Virus record (IMG/VR): IMGVR_UViG_3300047678_000815
Coordinates: 1 to 35,628 of that record
Direction: 5' to 3' (one strand)
From: a virus
Length of the DNA stretch: 35,628 bases
In this document: positions 6,085-18,147 of the stretch, in pieces
How the letters are laid out: each line of letters starts with the position of its first letter
Numbering within the stretch: position 1 is the stretch's first letter
Notes under the pieces: generated by a model
Seen by the model: the letters and a program-made list of their open reading frames with translations, nothing else
Database searches by the model: none
What the model was told of the DNA's origin: nothing
Position numbers and translations under genes: made by a program

Positions 6085-6351
6085 ATGAAAACACGCAAGC
6101 CTCTGACTCCGGCGCAGCAGCATGCTGCTGACCGCCTCCGGACTTACCTGGACACCCTGCCTCATGGCGGCGTGTCCAGGCTCGCCACCGACCTCAAGAC
6201 AGACCCGACCTATTTATGCCGACTGGGCTCTGGAGATCGGCCGATTACGGCCGACTGGGTGTTGAGGCTCGTGAAAGTGACCCCGCTGCAACCGCATGAG
6301 CTGCGGGCCGATTTGTTTGACCCACCGGAAGAGGGGGCAGAGGCGGCCTGA
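6085..6351 (+). CDS. YdaS/Cro-like DNA-binding protein
   Basis: 88 residues: MKTRKPLTPAQQHAADRL, then HGGVSRLATDLKTDPTYLCRLGSGDRPITADWVLRLVKVTPLQPHELRADLF. The helix-turn-helix (about 29-46) and the downstream W-V-L-R-L / PHELRPDLF-type ending are those of YdaS/Cro-like prophage regulators. It lies head-to-head with the repressor across the operators, the classical Cro position. No Shine-Dalgarno sequence precedes ATG 6085: the operator and -10 end within seven to ten bases of it, suggesting leaderless translation. Expected to bind the same operators and favour lytic growth. Confidence 0.85.
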   Translation: MKTRKPLTPAQQHAADRLRTYLDTLPHGGVSRLATDLKTDPTYLCRLGSGDRPITADWVLRLVKVTPLQPHELRADLFDPPEEGAEAA

Positions 6352-6382
6352 TCTTTGGTGCGTCTATACCCTTTCGCTGAGT

Positions 6383-6412
6383 CGGCAGCCATGTGCTGCC
6401 GGATGGTTTTTT
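6383..6412 (+). terminator. possible weak terminator after cro-like gene
   Basis: CGGCAG (6383-6388) pairs with CTGCCG (6396-6401) over a 7-base loop, and a T6 run follows after five bases. The gap between stem and T-run makes it a weak candidate. Its position resembles lambda tR1. Confidence 0.35.
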
Positions 6413-6594
6413 GCGCCTGCTTCATGGCGTTGTCCTTCGCTTAACTGATGCCTCCATCGTAAGTGCGCCCACAGAAGGCTGATACGGTGAGTTGGCAAGG
6501 GAGTTCTACATGCAACCAAGCAATGAAAAATCCTGCAAAACCCGAAATTTACCCGCGCCATATCGCCACTGTGCGGCTGCCCATGGTAAGCAAT

Positions 6595-6864
6595 TTATTG
6601 CCGATGACTGGGAGCAGCCGATTGAGCGCTGGCTCCGGCAACGCGCAGCACAGTGCGCTCAAAGCGGTCGAGTGATTCCGCAGCAGCCTGAAGAAACAGC
6701 GGGGTTTCGCTGTGCTCTTTTTGCAGGGTTTCGCGCCACGCTGGTGAGACTTCTGTCCAGAACGCGGAAAGCGTTTCAGGGGCGGGGTGTGTGGAAATGA
6801 GGGCGGCAACGGCTCTCTCTATGGCTGCTATGCGCCCCAGCGCAATCAATGCGGCATCGTTCAT
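6595..6864 (-). CDS. small unknown protein on opposite strand of right early region
   Basis: 89 residues, Ala-rich and helical: ALIALGRIAAIERAVAALI, then HPAPETLSAFWTEVSPAWRETLQ, then FLQAAAESLDRFERTVLRVAG. GGAG lies seven to eight bases before ATG 6864, and its composition is protein-like while overlapping plus-strand frames are Cys/Arg-rich. No family recognised. It points against the surrounding rightward genes, so it is either independently expressed or antisense to the right early transcript. A plus-strand alternative starting at 6510 overlaps it and cannot be wholly excluded. Confidence 0.55.
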   Translation of the reverse strand: MNDAALIALGRIAAIERAVAALISTHPAPETLSAFWTEVSPAWRETLQKEHSETPLFLQAAAESLDRFERTVLRVAGASAQSAAPSHRQ

Positions 6865-7648: not shown

Positions 7649-7890
7649 GCAACGGGCCTCGCGATATTTCACCGGAAATGCGCCCACTCTATGACCGGCT
7701 GGGAGAGGTGGCGGAACACATCGATAATCTTGTGCAGGAGGTTGTCGGTAGTCGCCGTGGCTTCGTCGTAATCATTGCACCGCATGACACTGAGCATGCT
7801 GCCCTGACAGTGCACAACCTGAAAGACAACGGTGAAGCAAAAATGGTCATGAAGGATTTCATCGCGCATGCAGGTGACGCCGATGAGTGA
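7645..7890 (+). CDS. small early protein, unknown function (GTG start)
   Basis: 81 residues starting at GTG 7645, which overlaps the TraR stop (GTGA). Sequence features: DISPEMRPLYDRLGEVAEHIDNLVQEVVGSRRGFVVIIAPHD, a helical N-half then one hydrophobic strand, then a helical tail rich in Lys and Asp. No family recognised. Tight coupling on both sides (its stop overlaps the primase start by eight bases) supports it as real. Confidence 0.65.
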   Translation: MSNGPRDISPEMRPLYDRLGEVAEHIDNLVQEVVGSRRGFVVIIAPHDTEHAALTVHNLKDNGEAKMVMKDFIAHAGDADE

Positions 7891-8851
7891 TCTTGATTCC
7901 GTTATCAACCAGCTCCGTGATGGTGGCCTCGAAATAGAGCGCGATCTGGTGTTCGGCAAGCTGACCCATGTGCGCGTTGAAGGTGGCAAGCGCTCGAAAA
8001 AGCAAGGCTGGTATGTGCTGTATGAAGTTCGCCTCACCAATGACGAAACCATCATTGCCGGCGCCTTCGGCAATTACAAAACCGACTTCAAGGCAAAAAT
8101 TGAACGGGACGCAAAGCACTGGAGTGATGCCGACAGGGCGGAATACAAGATCCGAATGCAGGCAGCACGGCAAGCCCAAGCTGATGCCGATGTTGAAATG
8201 CGCCGGCAGTGTGCCGAGCGTGCACGGCAGACCTGGACCAATCTGAGAGATTCCGGCGCGAGCCCGTATTTACAGCGCAAAAAGGTGATGGCGTTTGGTG
8301 TGCGTTTTGCGCGGGGCACGGTGGTGGTGCCGGTTTGTGTGGCCACGGGTGCGCTGGTCGGGCTGCAATTCATTGGCCCCGATGGTGACAAAAAATTCCT
8401 GACAGGCACGCCGAAAAAGGGCGCTTTTCACATGCTGGGCATTTACGCGCCAGCGGAGTCAGGTTCGCACCAGATTCTGATCGCCGAGGGCTATGCCACG
8501 GCGGCGACGGTGCACATGGCTACGGGCCTGCCGACGGTGATGGCGTTTGATGCCGGCAACCTGAAGCCGGTCGCACTGGCTCTGCGTGCGCTCTATCCGG
8601 ATGCCCGATTTGCTTTCTGTGCTGATGATGACGTTGGCGAGCCTGGCTGGGGCTGTATGGACTGCGGCCACTTCATCAGCGCCAAGACCCGCACCTATAA
8701 ACCCTTCAACGTCTGCCCGCATTGCAGCTCCTACCGCTGCGAGTCCACCAATACCGGTCGCTGTAAAGCCACTGCCGCCGCGAGGCTTGTTGGGGGTGTA
8801 ACGGCGTTTCCTGTATTCGCGAATCGCGAAGAGGAGCAGGCCGCCGCATGA
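7883..8851 (+). CDS. Toprim primase with inserted zinc ribbon
   Basis: 322 residues from ATG 7883. The N-terminal ~120 residues are helical. A beta-rich segment (GTVVVPVCVATGALVGLQFIGPDG) precedes the Toprim domain with E202 in LIAEGYATA and D248-D250 in FAFCADDD, the residues that bind metal in primases and topoisomerases. Between the DDD turn and the NTGRCKATAAAR helix, where family members usually run straight on, there is a Cys-rich insert (CMDC at 258-261, CPHC at 278-281, plus C286 and C294) that reads as a zinc ribbon. It precedes and overlaps (ATGA) the VapE-type ATPase, so the two probably form the primase-helicase. The start is chosen for the GGTG six bases upstream. Confidence 0.85.
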   Translation: MSDLDSVINQLRDGGLEIERDLVFGKLTHVRVEGGKRSKKQGWYVLYEVRLTNDETIIAGAFGNYKTDFKAKIERDAKHWSDADRAEYKIRMQAARQAQADADVEMRRQCAERARQTWTNLRDSGASPYLQRKKVMAFGVRFARGTVVVPVCVATGALVGLQFIGPDGDKKFLTGTPKKGAFHMLGIYAPAESGSHQILIAEGYATAATVHMATGLPTVMAFDAGNLKPVALALRALYPDARFAFCADDDVGEPGWGCMDCGHFISAKTRTYKPFNVCPHCSSYRCESTNTGRCKATAAARLVGGVTAFPVFANREEEQAAA

Positions 8852-10290
8852 GTTCCACTGACTGGAATGATCTGCATGTTGCGCACGGCCTTGATGCTGT
8901 GCGTGAGCAGCTTCTACCCCTTCTTTCCGCTAGCGCAGCGCCGGCGGAGCCAGCTCCACAGCATGCGCAAGCGGATGTAGGGGGGGAATTGCCTCCTATC
9001 GAAGCCTACGCCGGTGAGGTGACATCCAACTGGCGTGACGAGCTGCTGCGCACAGATACCGGCGGGGTGATTGGCAACCATGCCAATGCCTACTTGATCC
9101 TTGCAAACGATGAGCGCTGGCATGGCGTGCTCGCCTACAACGAATTTTCACAGCGCATCGTGAAGCGCAGGCCACCGCCCTATGAGGGCGGCAAGGTCGG
9201 CGACTGGGAAGATTCCGATATCAGCAAAACGCTGGTGTGGTTGCAGCGCGAATGGCGCCTGCCTCTGAAGCAACCCAAGTCTGCTGACGAGGCGGCGCGC
9301 ATGGTGGCGGCTGACAACCATTTCCACGAGGTGCGCGAGTGGCTTAATGGCCTGCCAAAATGGGATGGCACCGATCGGCTGTGGGATTTCATGACGCAAG
9401 CCTTTGGTGCTGCGTGCGATACCTACACCTCGCACATCGGCACCGGCTGGCTGGTGTCGGCCGTGGCGCGCATCTTGGTGCCTGGCTGCAAGGTGGACAC
9501 CATGCTCGTGCTGGAAGGCGGGCAGGGCCTTGGTAAATCGACGGCCATCCTCGAGCTATTCGGCGCGCCCTGGTATCTCGAAACGTCCGAGCCACCCAGC
9601 ACGAAGGATTTTTATGTGCTGCTGCAGGGCAGCTGGGTGGTGGAAATCGGGGAAATGCAGTCCTTCACAAAATCCGAAGTGACGCTCGTGAAGCAAGCCA
9701 TATCACGCCGCGATGACAAGTTCCGCGCGCCATACGATCGATACGGCAGCGCGCACCCACGCCAGTGCATTTTCGTGGGCACCACCAATGCCGACACCTA
9801 CCTGTCAGACCCGACCGGTGCACGCCGCTTTTTGCCGGTGATGTGCCGCGCAGTGGATCTGGATTTTATCCGCAAGAACCGCGACCAGCTCTGGGCCCAA
9901 GCCTTGGTCCAATTCCGCGAGGGCTTCAAGTGGTGGGATTTCCCTGTGGACAAGGCCAATGCCGAGCAGGAGGCGCGCTTCGTGTCCGACTCGTGGGAAG
10001 AGCCCATAGGAAAGTGGCTCGAGGGGCGTGCGACGATGACCGATTACCCGAAGGACGTCGGGGTCGGGCGCATCGACAAGGTCACCACCACGCAGCTGCT
10101 CCAGTACGCACTGCGTGTGGAGATGGGCAAGCACACCAGGCAAGACCAGCTGCGTGTGGCGGCCATCATGCGGCGCATGGGCTGGAAGCAAGGCCCGCTT
10201 GAGCGTGTGGGCACCGTGCGCTGGCGTTATTACCTGCGGCCACCGGAGGAAGGGGCACAACCTCCGCCGGCGGCACAACAGGCGGCCTAA
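8848..10290 (+). CDS. VapE-type virulence-associated E family ATPase (replicative helicase-like)
   Basis: 480 residues. The N-terminus is low complexity, then a conserved region (RWHGVLAYNEFSQRI, HFHEVREWLNGLPKWDGTDRL) leads to the Walker A EGGQGLGKST (223-232), Walker B-like VVEIGEM (264-270) and RQCIFVGTTN plus GARRFLPV, the sensor and arginine-finger region. These are hallmarks of the VapE/DUF5906-like P-loop family found next to Toprim primases in phages and islands. A helicase role in initiating phage replication is inferred from this pairing. The C-terminal ~100 residues hold a winged-helix-like segment. ATGA overlap with the primase. The candidate origin begins 35 bases after its stop. 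Confidence 0.9.
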   Translation: MSSTDWNDLHVAHGLDAVREQLLPLLSASAAPAEPAPQHAQADVGGELPPIEAYAGEVTSNWRDELLRTDTGGVIGNHANAYLILANDERWHGVLAYNEFSQRIVKRRPPPYEGGKVGDWEDSDISKTLVWLQREWRLPLKQPKSADEAARMVAADNHFHEVREWLNGLPKWDGTDRLWDFMTQAFGAACDTYTSHIGTGWLVSAVARILVPGCKVDTMLVLEGGQGLGKSTAILELFGAPWYLETSEPPSTKDFYVLLQGSWVVEIGEMQSFTKSEVTLVKQAISRRDDKFRAPYDRYGSAHPRQCIFVGTTNADTYLSDPTGARRFLPVMCRAVDLDFIRKNRDQLWAQALVQFREGFKWWDFPVDKANAEQEARFVSDSWEEPIGKWLEGRATMTDYPKDVGVGRIDKVTTTQLLQYALRVEMGKHTRQDQLRVAAIMRRMGWKQGPLERVGTVRWRYYLRPPEEGAQPPPAAQQAA

Positions 10291-10325
10291 TGATGTGACC
10301 GGTTTTTATTTAATGAAATCAACAA

Positions 10326-10537
10326 TGTCACAACCGGCACAACTGTCACAACCTTCGCGCGTATGCGTGTGAGCGAATACGGGAAGGCTGGTTATGTAGG
10401 GCTGTAATTGGTGGCCTCTGTTCTTGGGGTCAGTTTGTATAAATGTTTAAAAAATAGTTGTGACAAAAGTGACAGTAGTGACAAGGCTGATTTTAAAAGG
10501 AATTTTTGTCACATCGTCTGTCACTACTGTCACAACC
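10326..10537. repeat. TGTCAC iteron-like repeat cluster, candidate replication origin
   Basis: Eight exact TGTCAC/GTGACA hexamers lie in 212 bases. Two are in TGTCACAACC direct repeats at 10326 and 10344. Three are GTGACA at 10460, 10469 and 10478, spaced exactly nine bases. Three are TGTCAC at 10507, 10519 and 10528, the last again in TGTCACAACC. The GTGACA triplet and TGTCAC triplet face each other across an AT-rich stretch (10484-10506), and 10437-10455 is also AT-rich. It follows the primase-ATPase genes, where a theta origin would fit. It could instead be an operator array for the downstream Q-like gene. Confidence 0.6.
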
Positions 10538-10560
10538 ACAGAAAAAGCATGGGGGCGATC

Positions 10561-10971
10561 ATGAAGGATCGGAAAATCACGAGGGAACGGCTGGAGTACC
10601 TGCTGGAAAACTGGGGCAAGTACGTGACGGTCGGTGCCCCTGTGGGTCCGCAGGTGCCAACGCGCTGTGGCAGCGTTGAAAGCCAGTATGCAGCTGACCC
10701 GTCTCGCTACGTGTGGGAAGGCCGCGCATATGTTCCACGCGGAACGGGTGACATGGATGAATCACTGGCAGTGCTCACCGAAAAGGCGGTGCTGACCTTG
10801 TGTGACAAATACCAGCACGCGCTGGTGATGCGCTATGGCAAAGGCCTCACGCTGGTCGCCATCGCCATGAATGCGCGCTGCTCACTACCTTCGGCGGAAG
10901 CGATGATCGCGAGCGCCACCATTGCGGTGTGGGAACACCTGGAGAGTGAGTCATGGCAGAAAGTAGCCTGA
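10561..10971 (+). CDS. putative late-gene regulator (antitermination Q-like)
   Basis: 136 residues from ATG 10561 (GGGGG five bases upstream). The first part is charged (MKDRKITRERLEYLLENWGKYVTVG), the middle has YVWEGRAYVPRGTGD, and the C-terminal half, LTEKAVLTLCDKYQHALVMRYGKGLTLVAIAMNARCSLPSAEAMIASATIAVWEHL, reads like the sigma-4-like helix-turn-helix of RinA/ArpU/Q-type late regulators. It lies last in the early region, two short genes before cos and the packaging operon, which is the lambda Q position. Assignment is from layout and the HTH-like pattern, not from diagnostic residues. A longer reading from 10408 would run through the repeat cluster and is unlikely. Confidence 0.6.
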   Translation: MKDRKITRERLEYLLENWGKYVTVGAPVGPQVPTRCGSVESQYAADPSRYVWEGRAYVPRGTGDMDESLAVLTEKAVLTLCDKYQHALVMRYGKGLTLVAIAMNARCSLPSAEAMIASATIAVWEHLESESWQKVA

Positions 10972-11198
10972 GCGCCAGAATCCTTGATGTGCTTGACCTG
11001 GCCATGCGCCCACTCGCGGCAGCAGAAATCCGGCGCTGGATTCCGGATGATGTAGGGGCGGATGAATTGGCGAGCTGCTTGGTCAAGATGGAAGCCCGCA
11101 AAGAAGTGATCGTCACGAAGGTGCCGCGCAAGGCAAAAACCGGCCCCAGCCTGATCAAGGCGTACTCTGCCGTCGCTGAACAGCAGAAAGCATCATGA
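10953..11198 (+). CDS. small winged-helix-like protein
   Basis: 81 residues: SLSARILDVLDLAMRPLAAAEIRRWIPDDVGADELASCLVKMEARKEVIVTKVPRKAKTGPSLIKAY. The order helix, helix, recognition-like helix, then a two-strand wing matches small winged-helix proteins. It overlaps the end of the Q-like gene by 19 bases, with a GAGAGTGAG-type ribosome site. Likely a DNA-binding regulator acting with its neighbour; no specific family recognised. Confidence 0.6.
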   Translation: MAESSLSARILDVLDLAMRPLAAAEIRRWIPDDVGADELASCLVKMEARKEVIVTKVPRKAKTGPSLIKAYSAVAEQQKAS

Positions 11199-11214
11199 CG
11201 CGCATATATGCGCG
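11199..11214. repeat. 16-base perfect palindrome
   Basis: CGCGCATATATGCGCG begins directly after the stop of the 10953-11198 gene. It could be a protein-binding site or part of a transcript-end hairpin. Confidence 0.5.
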
Positions 11215-11217
11215 GGC

Positions 11218-11243
11218 TTCCCAAAACCCCCGATTTTTGGGAA
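11218..11243 (+). terminator. hairpin after early regulators
   Basis: TTCCCAAAA (11218-11226) pairs with TTTTGGGAA (11235-11243) over an 8-base C-rich loop. The downstream T-run is poor (TTTA), so it may be a pause or processing hairpin rather than an efficient terminator. Confidence 0.4.
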
Positions 11244-11320
11244 TTTAGCGGCGGGAAGTTGCGTCCCTCACTCCTGCGCAGCTTCCGATGCGATGCGCTT
11301 GGTCATGCAAGTGTCTATTC

Positions 11321-14598: not shown

Positions 14599-16095
14599 AT
14601 GACTTGGATGGACAAGGTCATCGCTGGCATGTCACCGGAGCGCGCGCTGCGTCGTGAGATTGCGCGTGCCCAGCTTGAGCGCCTTGAGTCTGTCCGCAGC
14701 AAACGTGCTGGCTATGAGGGCGCAAAGGCTGGCGGCCGTCAGGTGTGGACATCCAGCGGCAACAGCGCAAACACAGAGCTTGATAGTGCACTGGTTCGCC
14801 TTCGCGCCCGCTCGCGTGATCTGGTGCGAAACAACCCGTATGCCACGCGCGCGATTTCGAGCCTGGCCGGCAATTCCATCGGCACCGGCTTCATGGCGAA
14901 GCTGCCCAAAAACTTGCGGCCCTACTGGAAGAACTGGACCGAGTACGCAGATGCCGATGGGCAGCTCGACTACTACGGCCTGCAGCATCTGATTGCCCGC
15001 ACCGTGTTTGAGTCTGGCGAATGCCTCGTGCGTCATCGCCAGCGCCTGCCGTCTGATGGCTTTGAGATTCCGCTCCAGCTTCAGGTTATGGAGCCGGACT
15101 TTATTGATGACAGCAAGAACGGCGAAGTCACCGGTGGCGGCTGGATGTGGAACGGGATCGAGTTCAATGCGATCGGCCAGCGTGTCGCGTACTGGCTTTT
15201 CCCTGAGCACCCTGGTGATGTCGCCATGTTCCGTCGCAGGACGATGGAATCGAAGCGCGTGCCGGCGGAGTACATCCAGCACATTTATGAAAAGTTGCGC
15301 CCCGGTCAGGGCCGCGGTGTACCGCGCCTTGCGTCATCCATGCTGCGCATGCGCGATCTGGATGATTACGAAGAAGCCGAGCTTGTGCGCAAAGGCTTCG
15401 AGGCCTGCTTTGCCGCTTTTGTTGTGGGCAGTGAAGGGAACCAGCCACTCGCGCAGCTTGAGCCTGCCGGAGAAAACGGCAAGCGCATCGAGACGGTTTC
15501 TGCCGGCATGGTGGCTTACCTAAACGGGTCGCAGGACGTGAAGTTCGGGCAGCCCGCTCCCATGGGTGGTTATGGTGAATACACCAGCGTCCATCTGCAC
15601 GCTGCTGCTGCCGGTGCTGGTGTGACTTACGAGGCCATGACGGGTGATCTGTCGCAGATCAATTTCACCAGCCATCGCGCCGGGCTTCTTGAATTCCGTC
15701 GCATGGTTGAGGTGTGGCAGTGGCTCACCTTCGTGCCGATGCACGGCACGCGCACCGTGCGCGCATGGGAACAGCAGGCGCGTATCGCCGGCAAGATTCG
15801 TAGCAAAGAACCCATCCTGATCGACTGGACTCCACCCAAGTGGGATTGGGTCGATCCGAAAAAAGAAGTGGGTGCTGTTCGTGAAGAAATCGCAGGTGGC
15901 CTTGCATCACTTTCCGAGAAGCTGCGCTCACGCGGCTTCGACCCTGACACCGTCTACGCCGAAATCGGAACGGACGTAAAAGCTCTTGCCGAGGCCGCCG
16001 ATATTCCGCGCGAGCTCGTGTTCAAGATTCTTTTCCAGTCTGGCGGCCAATTGCCAGCGCCAGCAGAGCCGGTCACGCCGGACGCTGAAGACTAA
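14599..16095 (+). CDS. portal protein (lambda gpB family)
   Basis: 498 residues. Typical elements of lambda-family portals in order: RSRDLVRNNPYATRAISSLAGNSIGTGF near residues 71-98, LIARTVFESGECLVRH, a MEPDFIDD strand, the clip/stem region with PRLASSMLRMRDLDDYEEAELVRKGFEACFAAFV and a C-terminal QINFTSHRAGLLEFRRMVEVWQWLTF region. The portal forms the dodecameric ring through which DNA enters and on which the tail is built. The start follows gpW by three bases, with GGGAG in the end of gpW as ribosome site. Confidence 0.93.
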   Translation: MTWMDKVIAGMSPERALRREIARAQLERLESVRSKRAGYEGAKAGGRQVWTSSGNSANTELDSALVRLRARSRDLVRNNPYATRAISSLAGNSIGTGFMAKLPKNLRPYWKNWTEYADADGQLDYYGLQHLIARTVFESGECLVRHRQRLPSDGFEIPLQLQVMEPDFIDDSKNGEVTGGGWMWNGIEFNAIGQRVAYWLFPEHPGDVAMFRRRTMESKRVPAEYIQHIYEKLRPGQGRGVPRLASSMLRMRDLDDYEEAELVRKGFEACFAAFVVGSEGNQPLAQLEPAGENGKRIETVSAGMVAYLNGSQDVKFGQPAPMGGYGEYTSVHLHAAAAGAGVTYEAMTGDLSQINFTSHRAGLLEFRRMVEVWQWLTFVPMHGTRTVRAWEQQARIAGKIRSKEPILIDWTPPKWDWVDPKKEVGAVREEIAGGLASLSEKLRSRGFDPDTVYAEIGTDVKALAEAADIPRELVFKILFQSGGQLPAPAEPVTPDAED

Positions 16096-16106
16096 AGGAG
16101 AACACC

Positions 16107-18101
16107 GTGTCGCAACGTCAACGCCTCGAGGGAACGCTGCACCGCAGTCTGCCCGTCACCATTGCCATCCGCGCAGCGCAGGAGGGTGATGCCGATGATG
16201 GTCTGCTGCGCCTGACCATTTCCGCTTCCTCGGAACTGGCCGTCCTGCGCACTCCCTACTGGGAGGACCCCTGGCTGGAAACGCTCGGGCACGACGAAGG
16301 CGAAGTTGATCTCACTCGTTTCAGTGATGGTGCCACTGTGCTGGCGAATCACGATCGCTATACGGCAGTCGGCAACACGCCGCTGGCAGGCATTGGTGCC
16401 ATCGAGCGTGCCTGGCTGGAGGGCGGTCGCCTGAACACGGACATCGTGATCAGCCGCCGCGAAGGCCTTGCCGATCTGCGTCAGGACATTGCCGACAATC
16501 TCGTGCGTAACGTGTCCATCGGTTACGTCATCAACGAGCGCGTGCTCACGAAGACGGGCAAGGATGGCGCCCCCAACGAATACCGCATCACCAGCTGGAT
16601 GCCCTACGAACTTTCTCTGGTGGATATCCCGGCCGACGCCACTGTCGGTATCGGGCGATCCGCTGGCGATCAGAAATCCCCTGCCGCGACTTATCGCGTG
16701 CTGGGGTTGCCCGCCGAGGGCACCTCGACCCACGAAGGAGAACGCTCCATGTCTCAAGCCCCCGCCCCGGCGGCAATCCCTGCCGCCTCGGCAGCAGCTC
16801 CGGCTGCTGTCACCGAAACAACCCGTGCCCAGCCCGCTGCTGCGCCTGTCGCTGCCCCTGTGGCGCAGATTCGCGAAGCGGTGCGCGTAGCCGGCTTCGA
16901 CAACGAAGTCGCGCTCGACTACATCGAGCGCGCTCTGCCGCTGGAACAGGTTCGCGAAGATCTTTTCCGCAAACTTGCAGAAAAGGCCAACGCCGCCCCG
17001 CAGCGCTCCACGACAAGCGTGGTGATCGTGCAGGACGAAACCGTCACCCGCCGCGACTTCATGGCCGACGCGATCGCTCACCGCATGTCGCCCAGCACCC
17101 AGCTGACCGAAGGTGCCCGCCAGTTCCGCCACATGAGCTTGCTGCGCATGGCCGAGGAAACCCTGTCGCTGAGTGGTCTGCGCGTGCGTGGTCTTTCCAA
17201 TATGGAAATCGCCTCTCGTGCGCTGCACACCTCCAGCGATTTCCCGCTGATCCTGGCGGCTGTGGCCAACAAGCGTCTGCGTGCTGCCTATGAAGGCGCG
17301 CCGGTGACCTACGACCGCTGGGCTCGCCGCGCTCCGAATGCGCCGGACTTCAAGAACATCAACGTCATGCAGCTTGGTGCCGCTCCCGATCTGGAAGCTG
17401 TGGCCGAAGGTGGCGAGTTCAAGTACGGCACGCTCAAGGAAGACGGCGCCACCTACAAGGTCGCCGCTTACGGCAAGATCGTGGCCTTCACTCGCCAGTC
17501 CATCATCAATGATGACCTGCGTGCTTTCGATCGCGTGCTGGCTTCCTTCGGTGCTTCCTCGCGTCGTCTGGAAAATCGCCTCGTGTACAAGCAGCTCACC
17601 AGCAACCCCGTGATGGGCGATGGCGTTGCACTGTTCCACGCTGACCATGGCAACCTGGGCGGTGCCGCCGCTATTTCCGGCACCACGCTGGGTGAAGGCC
17701 GCGCCGCCGTGCGTAAGCAGAAGGGCCTGGCAGGCGAAGACCTGAACATCACGCCTTCCTTCTTGCTGCTGCCGACTGATCTCGAGCAGCTGGGCTACCA
17801 GTACACCTCGAGCCAGTACGTGCCGGCCAAGCCGGGCGACACGAACGAATTCCGCGCCGGTGGCCGCACCGCGCTGGAGCCGATCGTGGACCCGGTTCTG
17901 GATGCGACCTCCTCTTCGCAGTGGTACCTGGTGGGTGATAGCAGCTCCTGCGATACCGTCGAGTATTGCTGGCTGGACGGTGCCGAGGGCGTTTACCTCG
18001 AATCCGAGCCCGGCTTCGATATCGATGGCATCAAGCTGAAAGCCCGTCTCGACTTCGCTGCCAAGGTGGTTGACCACCGCGGCATGTATCGCCGCGGCTG
18101 A
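16107..18101 (+). CDS. prohead protease / major capsid protein fusion
   Basis: 664 residues from GTG 16107 (AAAGGAG upstream). Residues 1-185 form an HK97-type (U35/S78-like) prohead protease with H82 in NHDRY and the likely nucleophile S137 in NVSIGY, ending in the LVDIPADAT strand. Residues 190-330 are Ala/Pro-rich then helical, like a scaffold/delta domain. From about 335 to the end it reads as a major capsid protein (LEAVAEGGEFKYGTLKEDGATYKV, FTRQSIINDDL, ALFHADHGN). Such fusions are a known class. An in-frame ATG at 16749 (residue 215) has its own strong ribosome site, so the capsid part may also be made separately. A terminator follows at 18121. Confidence 0.9.
   Translation: MSQRQRLEGTLHRSLPVTIAIRAAQEGDADDGLLRLTISASSELAVLRTPYWEDPWLETLGHDEGEVDLTRFSDGATVLANHDRYTAVGNTPLAGIGAIERAWLEGGRLNTDIVISRREGLADLRQDIADNLVRNVSIGYVINERVLTKTGKDGAPNEYRITSWMPYELSLVDIPADATVGIGRSAGDQKSPAATYRVLGLPAEGTSTHEGERSMSQAPAPAAIPAASAAAPAAVTETTRAQPAAAPVAAPVAQIREAVRVAGFDNEVALDYIERALPLEQVREDLFRKLAEKANAAPQRSTTSVVIVQDETVTRRDFMADAIAHRMSPSTQLTEGARQFRHMSLLRMAEETLSLSGLRVRGLSNMEIASRALHTSSDFPLILAAVANKRLRAAYEGAPVTYDRWARRAPNAPDFKNINVMQLGAAPDLEAVAEGGEFKYGTLKEDGATYKVAAYGKIVAFTRQSIINDDLRAFDRVLASFGASSRRLENRLVYKQLTSNPVMGDGVALFHADHGNLGGAAAISGTTLGEGRAAVRKQKGLAGEDLNITPSFLLLPTDLEQLGYQYTSSQYVPAKPGDTNEFRAGGRTALEPIVDPVLDATSSSQWYLVGDSSSCDTVEYCWLDGAEGVYLESEPGFDIDGIKLKARLDFAAKVVDHRGMYRRG
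16735..16751 (+). promoter_or_regulatory. internal ribosome site and in-frame ATG in capsid fusion
   Basis: AAGGAG at 16735-16740 lies eight bases before ATG 16749, in frame with the fusion (codon 215). The block GGAGAAC...TGTC.CAA resembles the gene's own start (GGAGAACACC GTG TCGCAA), so both starts encode MSQ. This suggests a scaffold/capsid-only product of 450 residues, translated more strongly than the GTG-started fusion. Confidence 0.7.
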
Positions 18102-18120
18102 TCGCCTGACGTAAACCTGT

Positions 18121-18147
18121 AAAAAGCCCTGCACCGCAGGGCTTTTT
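18121..18147. terminator. terminator after capsid gene
   Basis: AAAAAGCCCTGC (18121-18132) pairs with GCAGGGCTTTTT (18136-18147), loop ACC. It is near-symmetric and lies in the 93-base gap before the cement protein gene, inside the late operon, so it probably attenuates the transcript after the abundant capsid message or protects its 3' end. Confidence 0.8.

Follow-up and report, generated by a model that had tools for sequence, protein, structure and literature searches.

What is the function of the regularly repeated hexamers in a short non-coding gap of a 35.6-kb virus record? The whole stretch of DNA that we analyzed, 35,628 nucleotides, is referred to here as the window. A preliminary description, made from the letters alone, had put the gap forward as a candidate theta origin or, failing that, as an array of regulator-binding sites for the Q-like gene that follows it.

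The window encodes a CI-like repressor, a CII-like activator, a Toprim primase, a VapE helicase and a GpA-type terminase, and its virion genes comprise terminase, portal, major head/protease, tail sheath, tape measure and baseplate genes. Given this virion gene set of its own and the CI-like and CII-like genes, we identify it as a temperate phage with a contractile tail and not a satellite; PICIs are satellites without a full virion gene set of their own, which the window does have. ORFs of more than 660 aa are present on both strands at 16092-18134, where the plus strand encodes the head protein/protease and the minus-strand ORF is probably a shadow ORF. The features of the operon and of the gap are as follows.

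7868-8851, plus strand: Toprim-type primase gene (weak match to PF13362; phrog_2249 positions 33-298)
8848-10290, plus strand: VapE-like AAA+/SF3-type helicase gene, the proposed initiator (PF05272, 1.1e-72)
10291-10560, no strand: non-coding gap of 270 nt from the VapE-type helicase gene to the Q-like gene, with the proposed origin inside
10326-10352, plus strand: left iteron array, TGTCACAAC CGGCACAAC TGTCACAAC, 9-bp period
10356-10371, no strand: alternating purine/pyrimidine tract CGCGCGTATGCGTGTG, 16 nt, recurrent in relatives
10430-10456, no strand: AT-rich segment, predicted as the likely unwinding site, 85% AT (whole window, 41%)
10457-10483, minus strand: inverted iteron array, GTTGTGACA AAAGTGACA GTAGTGACA, 9-bp period, conserved columns in alignment A5
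10488-10506, no strand: second AT-rich spacer, conserved in close relatives
10507-10536, plus strand: right iteron array, TGTCACATC, TGTCACTAC, TGTCACAAC, with spacing of 12 and 9
10561-10971, plus strand: Q-like gene, the downstream neighbor (phrog_79, E 2.1e-4)

The primase and helicase genes are separate, with a 4-bp overlap (ATGA) at 8848-8851, and they correspond to the two parts of a single fused family (phrog_2249, positions 33-298 and 300-780); the pair is fused in many relatives. The Q-like gene probably lies outside the origin. A longer ORF spans 10408-10971, with its likely ATG at 10561, and no relatives of the Q-like protein were found among viral contigs. GTGACA occurs twice more inside this gene, past the array, at 10748-10753 and 10802-10807.

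We examined the repeats by exact matching and by shuffling the gap. TGTCAC or its inverse GTGACA is present in eight exact copies, at 10326, 10344, 10507, 10519 and 10528 and, on the minus strand, at 10460, 10469 and 10478. Both the count of eight in non-coding DNA and the exact 9-bp period of three of them (10460/10469/10478) had been noted before and were borne out by the position list, and 5000 dinucleotide shuffles of the gap yielded a mean of 0.34 TGTCAC copies and a maximum of 4. When any 6-mer was allowed, at least eight copies appeared in 2 of 2000 shuffles of the gap. Across the genome, only two overlapping-step windows of 270 nt held any 6-mer at a count of 8, at the top of the distribution. 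The repeat unit is 9 nt long and TGTCACAAC-like; there are nine units in total, one of them, the middle unit of the left array (CGGCACAAC), being degenerate and invisible to an exact-match count. The array starts 35 nt past the helicase stop, immediately 3' of the proposed initiator gene. The facing arrays at 10326-10352 and 10457-10483 flank the alternating tract (10356-10371) and then the AT-rich segment (10430-10456). An inverted set facing direct copies across AT-rich DNA, as first described, is thus present, but the pair then stressed, 10457-10483 against 10507-10536, was too narrow, and the conserved core is 10326-10352 facing 10457-10483. GC skew along the window shows no switch at the array of the kind expected for an origin.

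The preliminary description had called for a comparative search for the same array in relatives. Our set comprised 172 sequences, mostly viral contigs or prophages, that encode the helicase or a relative of it, and at 85% identity they reduced to 82 distinct loci; a scan of genome contigs gave one distant relative. A 7-mer repeated at least five times in 300 nt was found within 1 kb downstream of the helicase in 66% of the 82 loci, as against 0.6% of 481 control segments taken from the same loci, about one-third of the surveyed loci being without a strong array by this k-mer test. We then defined the exact core as two direct copies at a spacing of 8 or 9 bp plus an inverted copy at a distance of 45 to 140 bp, or the mirror image of this. 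This core was present downstream of the VapE helicase in 47 of the 82 loci and in 2 of 732 control segments (p 3e-51). Automatic core calling failed in 13 of 61 arrays and chose a secondary core in the window; there, the comparative core was used instead. The letters of the iterons vary by lineage (TGTCAC, TGTCCC, TGTAAAC, GGCAACA and others), while the layout is constant. Aligning the nine nearest loci showed hardly any variation in the 9-bp register of either facing array, and an AT-rich spacer recurs after the inverted array. The core was richer in AT than its own locus in 46 of 48 cases.

The array also stays with the helicase while the genes downstream change, the next gene being Q-like, phrog_4300, or an endonuclease followed by a helicase. 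In the firmicute-type loci an endonuclease and then a second helicase come next, and phrog_4300 proteins are among the products of the next genes in the nearest relatives. The small phrog_4300 gene sits between helicase and array in Pseudomonas phages (6305-6676 in locus L009, 5335-5706 in L023), and it comes after the array in other relatives. These neighbors bear on the idea that the array is a set of transcription-regulator binding sites controlling the Q-like late gene, which lies directly downstream of it in the window. The downstream gene is unrelated in most relatives, the array of the Pseudomonas phages is not upstream of phrog_4300, and linkage of the array to a Q-like gene was not found across the relatives. 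No sigma-70-like promoter was found in 10200-11300, and the Q site of lambda-type phages overlaps the late promoter, which lies downstream of Q. The VapE helicase is the constant neighbor of the array, and a Q operator, the alternative entertained at the outset, is therefore disfavored; we consider it very unlikely. A packaging site was dropped as well: the small terminase gene lies about 1.2 kb further downstream, and in relatives the array is tied to the helicase.

The core of the window contains an alternating purine/pyrimidine tract, and a run as long as its 16 nt was rare in shuffles of the gap (P 0.0075). Alternating runs of at least 14 nt were found in 51% of loci, compared with 2.7% of controls, and in 49 of 82 loci the run exceeded that of dinucleotide shuffles of the same regions with p <0.05. 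The tracts are placed within the core, since 31 of 36 tracts of at least 12 nt lay inside it, as against about 3 expected. This recurrence suggests a specific melting element. A literature search of partial coverage returned no account of Z-DNA or an alternating tract in such origins, and a search, also of partial coverage, for a VapE origin with iterons returned nothing specific. The window contains a second alternating run at 11197-11214, nearly palindromic (ACGCGCATATATGCGCG), at the end of an ORF finishing at 11198, and no iterons were seen around it.

We next considered the helicase as the protein that might read the iterons. It matches PDB entry 7pds, PriRep1 with dsDNA, at a sequence E of 1.7e-48; we take this PriRep1, whose PDB chain is named 'Similar to D. 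nodosus vapE', to be a SaPI initiator. The AlphaFold model of the helicase (pLDDT 87.5) superimposes on 7pds with a Z of 32.8 over residues 60-471, SaPI PriRep1 being the closest structure; Foldseek also aligned the two. The proposed initiator is thus a homolog of SaPI Rep/PriRep. Its C terminus is predicted to adopt a winged-helix topology at about residues 410-465. In a partial Mantel test on 61 loci, iteron similarity tracked the identity of the C-terminal domain with the ATPase controlled (r 0.16, p 0.001), and in the reverse test, on the ATPase domain with the C-terminal domain controlled, no correlation was found (p 0.70). The effect of the C-terminal domain is small. In a single contrast, loci L004 and L013 have ATPases that are 80% identical and differ in their iterons (CACAAC vs CACCAG), and their winged helices differ in the recognition helix (VAA vs VAD) and by a shorter wing. 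The window shares the iteron, the VAA and the short wing of L004, its ATPase being equally far from both. The C-terminal domain of SaPI Rep recognizes iterons directly downstream of its own gene (PMC7581432).

It might also be that the origin is genuine and that the primase, the CII-like protein or a host factor reads the iterons, the helicase being recruited secondarily. In favor of such a reader, helicase and primase genes travel together, and direct binding of the iterons by the helicase is a prediction. Iteron similarity, however, follows the C-terminal domain of the helicase specifically, the layout is the same although the N-terminal or primase part varies among relatives, and the relatives from SaPI and SCCmec use the helicase C terminus for binding (PMC7581432). 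This variant is therefore unlikely.

Altogether, the region is very probably the theta-type replication origin of the phage, with the VapE-like helicase encoded upstream acting as its initiator on 9-bp iterons through the C-terminal winged helix, and with bidirectional replication. The comparison strongly supports an origin, as had been proposed for this gap, because the layout is conserved with changing iterons directly downstream of VapE helicases, because the annotated origin of phage Sfi21 and VapE plasmids have the same layout (see below), and because the helicase is homologous to SaPI PriRep1 and iteron similarity tracks the winged helix. A plasmid-like array for partition, incompatibility or copy control that does not initiate replication would be an alternative, since these are possible roles of iteron arrays and VapE plasmids carry similar ones. 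We regard it as extremely unlikely, given that the array adjoins the helicase, that the facing sets flank an AT-rich segment and that the Sfi21 and SaPI/PICI origins have the same layout.

From the layout, its conservation, the helicase homology and predicted fold, and the covariation of iterons with winged helices, all computed here, we infer how binding, melting, ring assembly, firing and directionality would come about at this origin. The C-terminal winged helix of the helicase would bind the 9-bp iterons, and helicase rings would form on the arrays at 10326-10352 and 10457-10483, which point in opposite directions. Between these facing arrays the DNA, alternating purine/pyrimidine and then AT-rich, would melt, two helicases would load on the single strands and move apart, and the primase of the operon would lay the primers for bidirectional replication. 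Such binding, opening and bidirectionality are considered most likely because SaPI Rep and other AAA+ helicases related to it offer the analogy. We also advance a broader proposal, to which we give somewhat less than an even chance, that VapE-helicase phages, PICIs and some small plasmids of Gram-positive and Gram-negative bacteria make up one origin class. Its melting zone would carry a selected alternating purine/pyrimidine tract, Z-DNA-prone and easily unstacked, between facing arrays of 8- to 9-bp iterons. A supercoil-driven B-to-Z transition or the opening of pyrimidine-purine steps would aid the loading of the helicase with its C-terminal winged helix, and the winged helix would re-tune iteron specificity.

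Temperate phages of this kind form a large group in which most origins lack annotation, and these results provide a signature by which such origins can be recognized. The layout was earlier described as exclusive to phage satellites (PMC6092414), and here its range comes to include small plasmids as well as tailed phages. Because iterons and winged helices vary in pairs in nature, recognition of an origin by its initiator can be tested directly.

Among known systems, the array appears to work like a self-loading-helicase origin of the SaPI/PICI type and probably belongs to that class, in a tailed phage. It resembles those origins in lying directly 3' of a primase/initiator-helicase module and in having an initiator homologous to PriRep1. 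At the level of sequence the window has the features of the SaPI/PICI class, yet it is a tailed phage that itself encodes capsid, terminase, sheath and baseplate, and many of the relatives are also phage or viral records. A further difference may be the alternating purine/pyrimidine tract inside its core, for which the VapE-helicase loci and the Sfi21 origin were compared. The Streptococcus thermophilus phage Sfi21 has an annotated 302-bp origin in non-coding DNA after its helicase gene, containing two direct AGTTAC copies at 9-bp spacing, an AT-rich segment and two inverted copies. In contrast to the window, its helicase is of the Pox_D5/DUF5906 type, not VapE, and its longest alternating run is only ATATATATA. 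The Sfi21 element is described as an independent origin activated by infection (PMC6356513). The putative origin of SCCmec Cch2 likewise has iterons, AAGTG, downstream of a self-loading helicase, which binds direct repeats with its C-terminal domain (PMC7581432), but only three iterons are reported and the helicase is of D5 type.

More distantly, the helicase fold is related to the AAA+ helicases of SV40 large T and papillomavirus E1 (E1 structure 2v9p, Z 10.0 against the helicase model). In the origins of SV40 large T and papillomavirus E1, short sites of opposite orientation surround the region that melts. In those different replicons the origin-binding domain is N-terminal (PMC7581432), whereas here it is predicted to be C-terminal.

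The layout also occurs on plasmids. On the Roseomonas plasmid p1318-5, three copies of CCCAACC (3954/3963/3972) face three of GGTTGGG (4083/4092/4101); in a plasmid record from E. coli, TGTTCCCC is found at 515/524/533 and, facing it, GGGGAACA at 638/647. In the 4340-bp Gluconobacter plasmid pGO128 (locus L174), the VapE helicase is the only replication-type gene annotated in an incomplete gene table. Just downstream of it, in region 2641-2945, AGCACT at 2852/2860 faces AGTGCT at 2924/2933. Judged from its sequence, pGO128 is apparently a natural minimal replicon with the VapE-type layout of facing iterons.
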